A stretch of DNA of 64,000 bases from Anatilimnocola floriformis (lineage in GTDB: Bacteria; Planctomycetota; Planctomycetia; Pirellulales; Pirellulaceae), in contig NZ_JAMLFW010000001.1 of NCBI RefSeq assembly GCF_024256385.1, positions 1-64,000 of the forward strand. The letters run 5' to 3'. The translations under genes were made by a program, and so were the position numbers. Below the pieces are notes generated by a model that had not been told where the DNA came from, did not search any database, and saw nothing but the letters and a program-made list of their open reading frames with translations. Shown here piece by piece: positions 31,717-45,377 of this stretch. Numbering within the stretch: the first letter of the stretch is position 1; every line of letters starts with the position of its first letter.

Positions 31717-32153
31717 AACCACAATCCTTCCAAGCTAGGGGAGCTCTGGCGGCCAAGCGACGTTCGCCACGACGGGCCAGGCTCTAGTGAAATCCGTGCC
31801 TTGGTTGAAATCGAGTTTCGCGTGCCAGCAACTTGATGCAGTAGCCGAGTACGCCGGTTTGGTCTGGTTGGCGAATCTGGTGCTACGACTCGTTGGCGGG
31901 TGCTAGCGAGCCAGCGATCGCAGGGACTGCGGGGTTTTGGAGGTCTGGGAAGACCCTGTGATCATGGAATCGACGAAAATGCAAACAGAGCTAATCCAAG
32001 GCGGGCAGAAATCCGATACAAACCATGCCTCGGTACGCATCGTCGCGTTCCTTGCAACTGACCAAGTCGCCGCAGCCGGCAACCCTGCCCCAGCTCGCGC
32101 CCCTTGACCAGTCCGCAAGGTTTCCCTTACGCTCAGGTGCAGACAGAGTACAT
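31717..32153. other. Intergenic region left of the tRNA
   Basis: This 437-base stretch of host DNA holds no convincing gene. The only long frame through it (minus strand, ending at 31903) is the read-through extension of the element integrase described below. The tRNA promoter should be at its right end. Confidence 0.4.
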
Positions 32154-33057
32154 GGCGCTGTAGCCAAGTGGCTAAGGCAGCGGATTGCAAATCCGCCATC
32201 GTGAGTTCGACTCTCACCAGCGCCTCTTCATTATTCCCGTGACAGTTGACGACAGGCGGTGACAAGTACCGCTCAGATATAGCCTTAGAGTTCACGGGCT
32301 CTAAGCTATCTGGAAACTGGCAGTTCGTGTCAAATGTGACAACCTGTGCCAGGAAATGCCCCTCTGAGACACACTCTTGTGTCAAATTTTGTGTCAAAAG
32401 CGCGGGCAGCGCTGGCAACTTCTCAACAGCCGCTGCGCCGTCGTTTTCTTCAATTTTCGCGTAAGTATCCAGCGTCAGCGTAATGCTCGAATGCCGCGCG
32501 AGCGTCTGAGCAACCTTCGCCGGGACGCCAGCCCGCGCCAGGCCGGAAATGAATGTGTTGCGCAGGGCATGGAAGTCCAGCACTTTGCCCGCAGCATCGA
32601 CATCAGAAAGGCCGGCGGCGTGCAGATCGGCCCTGAGCATTGCTGCGGCGTGGTTCGACCAGCTTCCTGGCCAGAGAAGCCCTTCGCGACCGGGAAGCCA
32701 AGCCCGCAGGATCGCGACAAGATCGCGGCGCAGGGGCTGGCGATCATTCTCCCGCCGTTTGCTGTGGGCGGCCTTAACCGCCACCGCTGCCGCTTCAAGA
32801 TCGAAGGATTCAGGCAGCAGGCTTTTGAGTTCGGATGCTCGCAGGCCGGTGCTAACCGCGACGAGATAGAGCATCACCCTATCTTCGCCGGACAGGCAGC
32901 GATAAACAGGCGCGGTGAGAGTGGCTTCAATCAGCTTGGCGAAGTCGTCCGCGCTGCACGGCCGGCGCTCGCGGGCTTCATCGGTTTCGGCATTCAATGG
33001 CGAGAAATGCGCCATCGGGTTTACTTCGGCGCGGCCGTCAGTCACCAGCCAGGCCAT
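31903..33057 (-). CDS. Tyrosine recombinase/integrase, N-terminally truncated, reading through attL into host DNA
   Basis: The catalytic domain is complete: Arg73 (TGLRASE), His163-x-x-Arg166 (HALRNTF), His189 (LARHSS) and nucleophile Tyr199 (LDTYAKI). The protein begins inside what should be the core-binding domain. Sequence just upstream is still integrase-like in the same frame (KTSNYYARDFKSF) but is closed by a stop near 33145 and has no ATG, so the N-terminal domain is missing. Past residue about 275 the frame crosses the attL core (RVELTMADLQS) and antisense tRNA, then host DNA to 31903. That last part is not native sequence. Recombinase activity is doubtful without the N-terminal domain. 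Confidence 0.8.
   Translation of the reverse strand: MAWLVTDGRAEVNPMAHFSPLNAETDEARERRPCSADDFAKLIEATLTAPVYRCLSGEDRVMLYLVAVSTGLRASELKSLLPESFDLEAAAVAVKAAHSKRRENDRQPLRRDLVAILRAWLPGREGLLWPGSWSNHAAAMLRADLHAAGLSDVDAAGKVLDFHALRNTFISGLARAGVPAKVAQTLARHSSITLTLDTYAKIEENDGAAAVEKLPALPALLTQNLTQECVSEGHFLAQVVTFDTNCQFPDSLEPVNSKAISERYLSPPVVNCHGNNEEALVRVELTMADLQSAALATWLQRHVLCLHLSVRETLRTGQGARAGAGLPAAATWSVARNATMRTEAWFVSDFCPPWISSVCIFVDSMITGSSQTSKTPQSLRSLAR
32104..32133 (+). promoter_or_regulatory. Possible tRNA-Cys promoter
   Basis: TTGACC (32104-32109) and TACGCT (32128-32133) are spaced 18 bases apart, 20 bases before the tRNA. The -10 hexamer is a poor match to consensus. Confidence 0.35.
32154..32225 (+). tRNA. 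tRNA-Cys (GCA anticodon)
   Basis: The cloverleaf closes fully. The acceptor stem GGCGCTG pairs with CAGCGCC, and the discriminator base is T, as in most tRNA-Cys. The anticodon stem GCGGA/TCCGC encloses TTGCAAA with anticodon GCA. The T-stem GTGAG/CTCAC encloses TTCGACT. CCA is not encoded. The 3' part of the gene is the left attachment core of an integrated element. Confidence 0.97.
32183..32228. repeat. attL core, 46-bp direct repeat
   Basis: This copy covers the tRNA anticodon-loop-to-3'-end part and 3 extra bases. It is identical to 45332-45377 at all 46 positions; the bases just outside differ. It is oriented so that the tRNA remains whole. Confidence 0.95.
32328..32397. promoter_or_regulatory. 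Candidate integrase arm sites, left side
   Basis: GTGTCAAAT (32328-32336) and GTGTCAAATTTTGTGTCAA (32379-32397) lie within 170 bases of the core. The 19-mer occurs again, identically, near the right core. Repeated short sites flanking a core are typical of arm-type binding sites of tyrosine integrases. They lie inside the integrase coding frame. Confidence 0.6.
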
Positions 33058-33327
33058 GAACGACTTGAAGTCGCGAGCGTAATAGTTGCTCGTCTTGATT
33101 CCGAAGGCCTTGTCAAACGGTTTTGAGATTCTTGGGTTTTACGGCAGATCGGGCGGAAAATTCGGAAGTCTTGGACTTTTCCGGGAAGTCGGTTGCCTCA
33201 GTTGTTCCGATTTCAATCATACCGCAAGCGGCAACGATTCCGCGTCCTAGTCGGCCTAAAGTTGAGGTGCGATTAGCTGCACCCGATAAGAACTTTGCGG
33301 GCATCAAATAACCTTGGGAGAAACTCA

Positions 33328-33522
33328 ATGAGCATGTACAAACTTAACTCTCCTGAACAGCAAAAGCGGTTGGACGAACTTTCGAGGGAACCAATTCCCG
33401 CACCGGGCGTTGGAGTTCGCACGATAGAAGAAAAACTTGCGGGCTTGTCGGCTGATTCGCCACTTCGGCCGGGGCTTGAAAAAATGTTGGCCGACTTGAA
33501 GGCCAAAGGTAAAAAGGCGTGA
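33328..33522 (+). CDS. Small hypothetical protein of the integrated element
   Basis: This is a 64-residue protein from ATG 33328, with GGGAG about 9 bases upstream. It is hydrophilic and helical (SPEQQKRLDELSREP; TIEEKLAGLSADSPLRPGLEKMLADLKAKGKKA). It lies upstream of the broken end of the integrase, on the opposite strand. No family is recognised. Confidence 0.6.
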   Translation: MSMYKLNSPEQQKRLDELSREPIPAPGVGVRTIEEKLAGLSADSPLRPGLEKMLADLKAKGKKA

Positions 33523-33577: not shown

Positions 33578-36352
33578 TTATCGCGCTGTTCCTCGCCGGA
33601 GTTCCCGGCGAATGTGGGCCATTACTTCGCGGGCGGTGGCTTTTGAATCGCCCTCGCCATGCAAATTCAGGTTAATGTCGCCGTTCAGGTTCGTTGTCGA
33701 ACCGGCCGCCATGGGGCGCGGAGCGATTCCCGCGTTCACCTGCTGAAACTGTGGGAAGAACTTCGCCGCCGATCGCGCGTTCACAACGAACTCGCCCGGC
33801 GTGAGCATCGCAGAGACTGTGTCGGTCCCCTGCGGCGCTTGGCCGCCGGCCGCGAGTGCCAGCCCGCCAGCCGCTTTGCTCACCGGTGCCTGGCCGCCGA
33901 TCCCGGCCGCGGCGCTGGCCGCTGCCTGATAAGAGGCCGCGGTCGCAGCTGCCGACTTCGCGATTGAATCTGCGGCCGATTGCGTGCTCTGCAGGGTGCT
34001 GCCGAGCGACGCAGCCGCGGTGCTTGTCGACTGCATCGCGGAAGACATCGTCACGGCCGGCGCTGCGGCCTGCAAAATCTTCTGCAACGGGGCGAGCTTG
34101 GCTTCCAGTTCAGGAATGTTGCCGATGGTGCTTTGGACTCGCTGAATCTCTTGGAACGTTCCGAGGGCCTCATCCAGGGCGTTCAGCGTGGAAGCAAAGG
34201 CGAACTTGCCCGCCTTCGGAGTGAAGAACCCATCACCCGCGAGGGCCTGCGATCCGAGCTTGTTACGCGCTTCGATGACTTTGGCGAGTTCCTCTTCAGT
34301 GAACTTCCCCGCGTCGCGCAGCCGCTGCAGTTCCGCAAACACGCCCGCGAACTGCTGGCGCAAATCCTCGCCCTCGCCGCCGCCGATCACCGCCCGGGAC
34401 GTTTTCAGCCGTTCCAAGGTCTGGAATAGCGAGTCCAGATTGCCGCGCAGCCGATCCGCTCCGGCCTGGCCGCTTAACGCCGTGTCAATCTGCGCCTTCA
34501 GTTCCGCGGCCTTCTTCTGCGCGTCGATCAGCCCCCGGCTGACTTGGTCCGGGTTGGTCAATTCGCGGCCGAGCACCTTCCCGAGCGCCGCTTCATCGAC
34601 CTTGGTCCCCGCCTTGAACTTGTCGAAAGCTGCTTTCTTCTCTTCTGCCGTCTTGGCGTTCGCCACGTCCTGCAGATAGGCCGCGTTCAGCTTCTGGTTG
34701 ACCTGCAGCGCTGCTTGAACCCTCGCCTCATTCGTTTTATTGAATGCGTCGCGCTGCGAGGCGAGCTTGCCTTGAAAGTCCTGAAGAAACGTTTTGTCTT
34801 CAGCCTTCAGTTTGTTCAAGTCTCGGAACAGCGCTTCCATGCGTTTACTTTCAACTGCGTTACCGACTGCCTGGCCGATTCCGGCCGCAATCGGCACGAG
34901 CGCCAGGCCGTTCAAGCCTTTCGACAAGAGGCCTAGCTGCGAGTTCGCGGCCGTAATGCTCAGGCGCAGCGTCACGAAGCCGGCAGTGATCCCCGCGAGG
35001 GCCGGCAGCACCTGTTTCGTTGTGGCGATTATGTTTTCAGCACCGCCCGCGAACTTGAAGAACTTATCGGCGGTGTCTAGGGTTGCTTGCCCTAGGTTCA
35101 CTGTCATTTCGTTCCGCAGCTTATTCAGCGCCGCCGTGACGCGCTCAGCATCGGTATCCGTTGCCGCGAGAAACTTCTCTCGGTTGAACTCGCGGCCCGC
35201 GTTCGTCATCTCGTTGATATTCCGAGTCAGTTCGCCAAGGTCGTCGGAGGTCAGCGAGGTAGCGCCCGATAGTCCGCGGATATTCGGGAACAACTTCGCC
35301 ATTTGTTCGGCGCTGCCGCCGGTGCTCGCGGACAATTCCTTCAGCACGCCAGAGAGGCCGAGCGTCTTGATTGCCAATTCACTGGAAGAGAACCCCATTT
35401 CAGCGAGTTGTTTTTCCATCGTCTCGCTAGGCTTCTGCAGCGCTGACAGAATCGCACGCAGTTGCGTTAGTGCTTCGCTGGTTTTCGTACCGCGAACCGA
35501 GATTGCCGCGAGTGCGCCGCCGGTTTCTTCCAAAGAAACTCCGAGGTCGCTTGCGATGGTATCGATACGACCGAAGCTGTTGGCCAACTCGCTGGCGTTA
35601 ATCCGTCCGCGATCAATCGTAGCAAAGAAAATGCTGCTGACTTTGTCGGTATCATCGACCGATAAATTGAACCCGCGCAACGCTGCCGAGAGTAAATCGA
35701 CAGAGTCTTTCAAGCTCGAATTCGTTGCTTTTGCAAATCGCGCAGCCTCAGCCGTAAAGGTCAACGACTGCTGAAAATCTCCGACTTGATTCGAGAGTGC
35801 GTTGTAGGTTGCTTCGGTCGCCTGCAGTAGCGGGATATTGAATTCGTCCGACAGCTTGCGAACGGATACGGCGATTTCGTCAAACTTCGCGCCGTCCGCA
35901 ATCGTGGTTGTCAGCGCGACTTGCTTCTGGAAATCGATTGCCGATTTCGCGGTATCCTGCAGAGCGTTTCGGAGTTGCGACAGTGCGCGAATAATCGCCT
36001 GCGTGTAAACGATGCGCGACAGCAAGCCGAGTGACGTAGTAAGCCGCTCAGTGTGCTGCACGGCCTGCGGTACGTTCTGGTTAAACGCCTGCGCGGCCGC
36101 GCCCAATTGCTGCTGCGTGCTGGTGCCGAATTGCTGCGTGGCTTTGGTCGCATTGCCTAGACTCGTCTGCACTGATGAAGCCATGCCGCTCGCGGCCGTG
36201 GCAAAGTTCTTTGCCGTGTTATTGAATTGCCCGATGGTTTGGCCGAGATTGGCAAAGCTCTGCTGCAGTTTGTTCAAGCCGCTGTCGAGGGCCGCAATTG
36301 CCGCCAGGGCATTCGAGGCATCGAAGCCCATCCGCTGTACGATTTCAGTCAT
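33578..36352 (-). CDS. Phage tail tape measure protein (TP901 / PhageMin_Tail family)
   Basis: This 924-residue protein sets tail length in siphovirus- or myovirus-type tails and is ejected with the DNA. A helical coiled-coil start precedes the conserved block at about 110-330 (TAKSAIDFQKQVALTTTIAD; NSSLKDSVDLLSAALRGFNLSVDDTDKVSS; GVSLEETGGALAAIS; TKTSEALTQLRAILSAL). A hydrophobic segment lies near 445-500. A long helical region runs to about 800. The C-terminus has the usual GTDTVSAMLTPGEFVVNARSA block. At the rule of thumb of 1.5 angstrom per residue it would fit a tail of roughly 140 nm. It has its own terminator at the end, and a hairpin terminator just upstream. Confidence 0.93.
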   Translation of the reverse strand: MTEIVQRMGFDASNALAAIAALDSGLNKLQQSFANLGQTIGQFNNTAKNFATAASGMASSVQTSLGNATKATQQFGTSTQQQLGAAAQAFNQNVPQAVQHTERLTTSLGLLSRIVYTQAIIRALSQLRNALQDTAKSAIDFQKQVALTTTIADGAKFDEIAVSVRKLSDEFNIPLLQATEATYNALSNQVGDFQQSLTFTAEAARFAKATNSSLKDSVDLLSAALRGFNLSVDDTDKVSSIFFATIDRGRINASELANSFGRIDTIASDLGVSLEETGGALAAISVRGTKTSEALTQLRAILSALQKPSETMEKQLAEMGFSSSELAIKTLGLSGVLKELSASTGGSAEQMAKLFPNIRGLSGATSLTSDDLGELTRNINEMTNAGREFNREKFLAATDTDAERVTAALNKLRNEMTVNLGQATLDTADKFFKFAGGAENIIATTKQVLPALAGITAGFVTLRLSITAANSQLGLLSKGLNGLALVPIAAGIGQAVGNAVESKRMEALFRDLNKLKAEDKTFLQDFQGKLASQRDAFNKTNEARVQAALQVNQKLNAAYLQDVANAKTAEEKKAAFDKFKAGTKVDEAALGKVLGRELTNPDQVSRGLIDAQKKAAELKAQIDTALSGQAGADRLRGNLDSLFQTLERLKTSRAVIGGGEGEDLRQQFAGVFAELQRLRDAGKFTEEELAKVIEARNKLGSQALAGDGFFTPKAGKFAFASTLNALDEALGTFQEIQRVQSTIGNIPELEAKLAPLQKILQAAAPAVTMSSAMQSTSTAAASLGSTLQSTQSAADSIAKSAAATAASYQAAASAAAGIGGQAPVSKAAGGLALAAGGQAPQGTDTVSAMLTPGEFVVNARSAAKFFPQFQQVNAGIAPRPMAAGSTTNLNGDINLNLHGEGDSKATAREVMAHIRRELRRGTAR

Positions 36353-42622: not shown

Positions 42623-43300
42623 TTAGACGCGCCCGGCCAGGCGATGCACCGCGGTCGCGGTGTATGGCATGCCGCGTTGAGTGACCCTGCCGGCAGCGTT
42701 GAGTTCGTTCGCGATTGCCGCGAGCGCGACCCCAGCCGCTCGCCGCTCCAAGATCGTCGGCAGAACGCCCGCGTAATAGCTCGCTGCATTCGCTGACGTG
42801 GCCGCAGCGCCCTTCGCCCGGGCTTCATCGCTCAGATTACGGCATGCTGGATTCGAGGCTCCCAAAAGCGTTCCGCGGGCCTTGGCGGCCTGCAATGCGT
42901 CCTTGGTGCGAGCACTGATCTTGCGGGCCTCCTCCTCCGCTACGGCCGCTTCGATGTGCAACCGGAAAGGATCGGCCCCGGGCCGATCCGCACAATCGAA
43001 CGGCACACCGGATTCCATCAGGCCGCTGACGAAGTGCACGTTACGGGCGAGGCGGTCGAGCTTCGCCACAACCAACGTGGCCTTGGCCCTCTTGGCGTGC
43101 GCCAAGGCTACCCGCAACTGCGGCCGATCCGAGCGTTTCCCCGTTTCAACCTCGACATATTCGGCGATAATCTCGCCACCTACTTGCTGAGCGTACGCAG
43201 CAGCAGCGGCCCGCTGAGCTTCCAACCCAAGGCCTGAAGCACCTTGTTTCGCGGTGCTGACTCGATAGTAAGCGATGAGTTTCCGTGTTGTTCGTTTCAT
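42623..43300 (-). CDS. Serine recombinase of the resolvase/invertase type
   Basis: This is a 225-residue protein. The catalytic serine is Ser15 (YYRVSTAKQ). LVVAKLDRLARN carries the conserved Arg residues. Further motifs are EAAVAEEEARKISARTKDAL and a C-terminal helix-turn-helix (AGVALAAIANELNAAGRVTQRGMPYTATAVHRLAGR). This is the normal structure of small resolvase/invertase proteins. It might resolve multimers of the excised element or invert a segment. An inverted repeat lies directly at its start. Confidence 0.9.
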   Translation of the reverse strand: MKRTTRKLIAYYRVSTAKQGASGLGLEAQRAAAAAYAQQVGGEIIAEYVEVETGKRSDRPQLRVALAHAKRAKATLVVAKLDRLARNVHFVSGLMESGVPFDCADRPGADPFRLHIEAAVAEEEARKISARTKDALQAAKARGTLLGASNPACRNLSDEARAKGAAATSANAASYYAGVLPTILERRAAGVALAAIANELNAAGRVTQRGMPYTATAVHRLAGRV

Positions 43301-45087: not shown

Positions 45088-45262
45088 TGTTGCCTCTCCT
45101 AGTAGTATTTGCCTTGGCACTTCCAAGGGCATGAGAGCTACACACCGCAGAGTGCGCGGAGCGGTTTTGGGAATTGCTCAGATTTCTAAGAGGGCGAGCA
45201 TCGCCCGGCGGACCGCCGCCGGCAGATGCGGCCAGGCCGCTACAATCCGCGCCAGATCACTA

Positions 45263-45281
45263 GTGTCAAATTTTGTGTCAA
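45263..45281. promoter_or_regulatory. Candidate integrase arm site, right side
   Basis: GTGTCAAATTTTGTGTCAA is identical to 32379-32397. It lies 50 bases inside the right core. In the excised circle the two copies would flank the core in the same orientation. Confidence 0.6.
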
Positions 45282-45331
45282 CGGCGGGTGAAATTGTGCT
45301 CTTTCCCGGCGAAAACTGTGCATTGTTGCCA

Positions 45332-45377
45332 GATTGCAAATCCGCCATCGTGAGTTCGACTCTCACCAGCGCCTCTT
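45332..45377. repeat. attR core, 46-bp direct repeat
   Basis: This is the 3' fragment of tRNA-Cys, identical to 32183-32228. It lacks the acceptor 5' strand and D-arm, so it is not a second tRNA gene. Confidence 0.95.

Follow-up and report, generated by a model that had tools for sequence, protein, structure and literature searches.

The element in the window and its attachment cores

The window, a stretch of 64,000 nucleotides from a contig of Anatilimnocola floriformis, contains a 13.1-kb element bounded by an exact 46-bp direct repeat (32183-32228 = 45332-45377). This repeat, the attachment (att) core, is the 3' part of a tRNA-Cys gene and is crossed antisense by the reading frame of a minus-strand integrase. 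The following features were located at and between the two ends:

31903-32182, minus strand: host-encoded C-terminal extension of the hybrid integrase frame past the core, stop codon at 31903-31905
32154-32226, plus strand: tRNA-Cys(gca) gene, the integration target, whole at this junction (ARAGORN)
32183-32228: att core, integrase-end copy (exact 46-bp direct repeat)
32229-33057, minus strand: integrase body remnant, tyrosine recombinase catalytic domain and linker (PF00589, E 8.4e-16)
33578-36352, minus strand: tail tape-measure gene of the 13.1-kb element (PF10145; PHROG 991)
42623-43300, minus strand: serine resolvase/invertase within the tyrosine-integrase element (PF00239; PHROG 125)
45178-45331, minus strand: native integrase tail, in frame behind the far-end core, stop codon TGA at 45178-45180
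45332-45377: att core, far-end copy (exact 46-bp direct repeat)

A tail-fibre-like gene is also encoded and, judged from the part of its ORFs that was searched, the element looks like a degraded prophage.

The integrase remnant of the window

The minus-strand integrase frame runs from ATG 33057 through the core to 31903 without a stop (384 aa), reading antisense tRNA and then host DNA past the core, while the far-end core is entered in the same frame, which continues to TGA 45178. Both readings of the initial annotation were confirmed, and its arithmetic was right: body and tail joined give 342 aa and a stop, that is 343 codons, with the junction serine kept either way. The tail comprises 50 residues past the junction codon, and its hairpin motif region lies at 45181-45264. 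The PF00589 match of the window ORF (58.7 bits against a gathering score of 27.1) covers residues 41-203, entirely ahead of the core; nothing besides PF00589 was found in this ORF among Pfam families at E up to 0.01, and the tail matched no Pfam family at E up to 1.

These 343 codons had been taken for an intact integrase, which they are not, as the N-terminal domain is gone along with some of the core-binding domain. Upstream of the point equivalent to 33057, most of the complete homologues have about 130-200 more residues before a stop. The closest homologue, L007, shares 55% identity across the body; similarity of the window to it starts only at 33111, and the window frame is shut 27 codons above 33057, so that the integrase of the window is 5'-truncated. 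When the L007 N-terminus was compared with the window's genome, three paralogue N-termini were recovered (24-35% identity); in the window itself only its last 19 residues were matched. ATG 33057 is thus not the native start, and about 125 N-terminal codons relative to L007 are missing, a stretch that takes in the N-terminal domain and some of the core-binding domain. A complete protein with both domains is encoded by many homologues and not by the window copy which, being 5'-truncated, is probably dead. A deletion or rearrangement breakpoint lies near 33111-33126. The stretch above the integrase remnant, 33112-33500, showed no match to any of the homologous N-termini with which it was compared.

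The open frame at the far end might be a product of chance with no biological meaning and, in the window alone, its 51 codons are not extreme, compared with 30 and 17 codons in the other frames and 93 on the host side. The window's own tail frame therefore proves little, and the case against chance rests on related elements.

The integrase frame across the core in related elements

Among 196 genomes, which comprise the window's own and those of its relatives, at least 105 had matches to the integrase body at E up to 1e-8; up to 12 candidates were scored per genome, so that 105 is a lower bound. Scans for close relatives with the window body as the only query found none in genome contigs or viral contigs, and isolate phages and plasmids yielded only integrases with less than 60% identity and less than 80% query coverage. 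A first alignment (A1) proved too diverse for a pattern scan and gave way to two tighter subsets, A2 and A3.

The frame analysis covered 26 elements, namely the window and the upstream DNA of 25 homologues, and the core of each was defined as the longest exact repeat joining the 3' part of the integrase gene with the far end. In 15 of them, from 11 genomes, the 3' part of the integrase frame was linked to the far end by an exact repeat of 15-62 bp (merely 15 bp in G116). Within the DNA fetched, no in-frame core was found in the other 11, of which seven had less than about 21 kb and four about 45-58 kb upstream of the integrase; these were excluded from the frame statistics. Behind the far-end copy, the integrase frame stays open in every one of the 15 elements in which such a core was found, over 51-162 codons (median 67), compared with medians of 13 and 17 codons in the other frames; the integrase frame was the longest of the three in 15 of 15 cases (Wilcoxon p = 6e-5). 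On the host side, the integrase frame continues past the core for a median of 7 codons in the same 15 elements (p = 0.004) and exceeds the tail in two, the window (93 vs 51) and G000_4.23M (96 vs 52).

The earlier proposal that attP lies inside the integrase gene is supported by the exact core repeat and by the related elements, as is the claim that nothing but the excised circle would encode the native C-terminus. The expectation that homologues carry the tail in frame was borne out by the 15 elements with an in-frame core and by four uninterrupted body-tail ORFs (see below). It did not extend to every homologue, given the 11 of 26 elements lacking such a core and 36 of 112 classified loci with neither read-through nor a W-motif tail. 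The window holds an integrated, degraded member of a widespread group of planctomycete elements with attP inside their own tyrosine integrase gene. The sequence shows that integration parts the tail from the integrase body and puts a host-encoded end in its place, and precise excision would rejoin the two.

In G000:C1, at about 5892070-5923953 (L002, L003, L181, L182), two related integrases, separated by about 31 kb, seem to form a tandem at a site of the tmRNA type, the order being deduced from coordinates. Here one core has two roles: it stands at the 3' end of the L003 integrase and marks the far end of the adjoining element, and behind it the two-motif tail of that adjoining element is read in the frame of its neighbour. 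The arrangement in G119:C7 resembles this tandem.

Uninterrupted body-tail frames and classes of loci

Among 84 further loci (4 + 13 from viral contigs and 67 from genome contigs), four carry the body and a W-motif tail (defined below) in a single unbroken ORF: L101, which is an IMG/VR contig; L113, which starts at a contig edge; L169, with the C-terminal part of the body only; and L178. PF00589 also scored above its gathering score in L178, L101 and L113. ARAGORN called no tRNA or tmRNA in the available DNA of the four, as expected of attP. A T-arm pattern lies between body and tail in three of them (L113, L169 and L178); none was found there in L101 by the pattern used.

A broader classification covered 112 loci, 7 known duplicates having been removed and a few near-identical ones being left. 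In 45 of these, the integrase frame reads through, antisense, into a called tRNA (13) or tmRNA (32), and 19 more show an in-frame antisense T-arm pattern without a called RNA gene. The rest consist of the four body-tail ORFs, the 36 loci with neither read-through nor W-motif tail, and 8 that were unusable.

Conservation and predicted structure of the tail

A hairpin motif, W-x-x-L-P-x-x-(V/I)-(R/K), is present in the tails of 7 of the 15 split elements and doubled in two. Variants occur in G124, with S before R, and in G119_C6, with L-S instead of L-P in one of two copies. The other eight tails have no W-x-x-L-P and differ in sequence, so that one common function cannot be assumed for them.

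With no more than 42 candidates scored per genome, a profile built from 13 tail segments had matches of E up to 1e-4 in at least 83 of the 196 genomes. In the window's own genome it found two places below E = 0.4, both of them far ends and both training sequences. From 29 loci recovered by the tail search, 6 were training sequences, which left 23 outside the training set. At 18 of these 23, a T-arm pattern, antisense or sense, lies 60-340 bp upstream of the tail, compared with 7.1% of 606 random positions. At L197, L200, L203 and L222 the tail stands behind a called tRNA or tmRNA gene that shares its strand, so that some elements of this kind appear to cross the RNA gene in sense and both orientations occur.

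For 30 W-motif tails of 26 codons each, training ones included, pN was lower than pS in 433 of 435 pairs (means 0.40 vs 0.71), a comparison in which pN is biased downward because the tails were chosen by protein similarity. When the tails were shifted by one or two bases, this held for 238 and 17 of the 435 pairs, respectively. The W-motif tails thus appear to be conserved at the protein level. With the frame statistics of all 15 elements, the four body-tail ORFs, the proximity of T-arms and this protein-level conservation set against it, a chance frame is hardly credible and was rejected for the family.

The tail was further examined in a structural model of L178 (15-sequence alignment, mean pLDDT 67, pTM 0.43). 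Its domains are well modelled up to about residue 310, the first of them, at the N-terminus, being made up of one helix and three strands (block pLDDT 78-88). Residues 342-497 have pLDDT below 50, and the model ends in a helical hairpin (helices 500-508 and 515-537) with pLDDT of only about 60. The integrase tail is probably a tethered helical hairpin following a disordered linker.

These properties bear on two further explanations. According to the first, the tail would be a destabilising or inhibitory tag, leaving the enzyme of the circle short-lived and the shorter prophage form stable. The model for this is the repressor of mycobacteriophage BPs, from which integration reportedly takes off a C-terminal stretch of 33 residues with an ssrA-like degradation tag (PMC4557955). 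The occurrence of hairpins with a conserved W-x-x-L-P core in 7 of 15 tails, and the fact that no ssrA-like ending was noticed by eye among the listed tails, render a tag distinctly unlikely. In the second, the tail would serve the circle in some other way, such as partner binding, replication or copy control, and its loss would be without effect on recombination. Primase/helicase/Rep-like ORFs, seen by eye in some small elements, would fit such a role, whereas the W-motif tails are tied to the integrase and to the T-arms of tRNA/tmRNA genes (18 of 23 loci), so that we regard this, too, as a rather improbable account.

Putative arm-type repeats around the core

In each of the 15 elements, the 350 bp preceding the core were searched for the longest direct repeat that they share with the tail side, and its length was compared with that in 40 shuffles (two-base blocks). 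Repeats shared across the core lie at -124 to -184 and +45 to +83 bp from it in all 15 elements; in 11 the shared repeat was longer than in all 40 shuffles, and in 4 it was not. In the window the following copies were found:

32327-32333, minus strand: extra single TTGACAC, -105 from the core
32379-32397, minus strand: putative arm-type repeat TTGACACAAAATTTGACAC, two TTGACAC 12 bp apart, in linker-coding DNA, -169 from the core
45263-45281, minus strand: second copy of the 19-bp repeat TTGACACAAAATTTGACAC, in tail-coding DNA, +50 from the core

The 19-bp repeat is translated as LTQNLT in the linker and, in another frame, as DTKFDT in the tail, which argues that DNA rather than peptide is kept there. 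Among the body-tail loci that bear a T-arm, the repeat is clear in L113 (22 bp) and marginal in L178 (12 bp), and L169 has none above the shuffles. The repeats flanking the core look like arm-type integrase sites and, as they stand on both sides of it, the integrase ORF appears to contain the entire attP. A predicted N-terminal domain together with arm-like repeats flanking the core recalls the bivalent integrases of the lambda type. In lambda, however, attP lies outside the int coding region, and in the planctomycete elements it appears to lie within the int ORF.

Proposed mechanism and comparison with known systems

From the N-terminus, the integrase ORF would comprise an N-terminal, probably arm-binding domain, a core-binding domain, a catalytic domain and linker DNA with arm-type repeats, followed by the core, DNA with the same putative repeats, the tail, often a conserved helical hairpin, and the stop. 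The core would come from the 3' part of a tRNA or tmRNA gene, which the integrase frame usually reads in antisense. That these integrase genes hold their own attP and lose their tail through integration is, on the evidence of the reading frames, highly probable.

The tailed integrase, made from incoming or excised circles, would be the integration-competent form, and the tail-less chromosomal hybrid would have altered activity or stability. The reaction would in this way rewrite its own enzyme, favouring the integrated state, and the hybrid, perhaps with an accessory factor, would excise on induction. Since the catalytic domain is left whole, the hybrid may still act, and the tails, kept open in frame though unusable while integrated, suggest repeated excised phases. 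A directionality switch of this kind, with the tailed form integrating and the tail-less form altered, is tentative when taken by itself; architecture and switch weighed together seem slightly favoured. The most far-reaching reading, to which we assign a probability of roughly 0.4, is that of a widespread bacterial integrase class with a complete attP (core and both arms) and a tail, often a conserved hairpin, in the int ORF, in which the swap of C-termini at every integration would be a built-in directionality control.

Recombination sites inside integrase genes have precedents among the archaeal integrases of SSV1, pTN3 and pT26-2, in which attP lies within the int ORF and the gene is split on integration; the review describing them calls recombinases that disrupt their own gene exclusive to Archaea (PMC8371274). 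The planctomycete enzymes share with these suicidal (type I, SSV-type) integrases a recombination site inside the gene that is split by integration. They might accordingly be bacterial counterparts, with a tail needed for any activity, a dead hybrid, and an exit dependent on a related integrase supplied in trans. Such an interpretation draws on the archaeal parallel (PMC8371274) and on the neighbouring related elements in the window's own genome and in G119, which could supply the integrase. It is nevertheless unlikely, as the PF00589 match lies fully before the core, unlike in SSV, in which the catalytic domain belongs to the Int(C) piece that is cut off; in the planctomycete integrases catalysis stays with the body and the tail alone is lost. 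The far-end tails are moreover open in 15 of 15 split elements, which suggests regular excision. Phage_integr_3 (PF16795) was not listed for L178, L101 or L113 at E up to 1, a search in which weak matches may be filtered out.

The Burkholderia P2-like phage AP3 has an integrase whose last 33 nt are replaced by 15 nt of tRNA-Arg (PMC5247547). It is likewise a bacterial tRNA-targeting integrase with its 3' end swapped on integration. As far as the consulted text of that report goes, AP3 loses about 11 residues, compared with planctomycete tails of 51-162 codons that often form a conserved hairpin, and neither arm sites in the ORF nor a conserved tail are described for it, whereas the planctomycete attP is apparently all inside the ORF. 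The integrase of phiCTX is similar to that of AP3. In the consulted parts of the literature on int/attP overlap (PMC4111918, PMC6035254, PMC2951348), with subscription journals mostly outside the scope, no bacterial swap of an integrase 3' end besides AP3 was found. The comparison with BPs drawn in the initial annotation is apt: according to the same report (PMC4557955), attP there lies inside a regulatory ORF and the C-terminus of the protein is cut off by integration, in a repressor gene rather than, as here, an integrase gene. The principle of attP within an integrase gene is thus already known, and what stands out in planctomycetes is the length of the tail, the putative arms inside the ORF and the wide spread.

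With several tRNA genes and tmRNA as targets, numerous bacterial elements here detach a conserved portion of the integrase that they encode, and the planctomycete enzymes present a naturally occurring, testable example of a reaction that reprograms its own catalyst. An attP inside the gene may also account for the odd C-termini, read from 'antisense tRNA', of integrase ORFs in planctomycetes. The combination of tail and T-arm offers a way to map the ends of elements in a phylum that has received little study.

Some elements of this type are very small, namely those of G029 (5.8 kb), G116 (6.9 kb), G072 (7.7 kb) and G012 (9.5 kb). Inspection by eye showed primase/helicase/Rep-like ORFs and no obvious virion genes in them, and they are possibly integrative plasmids or satellites.
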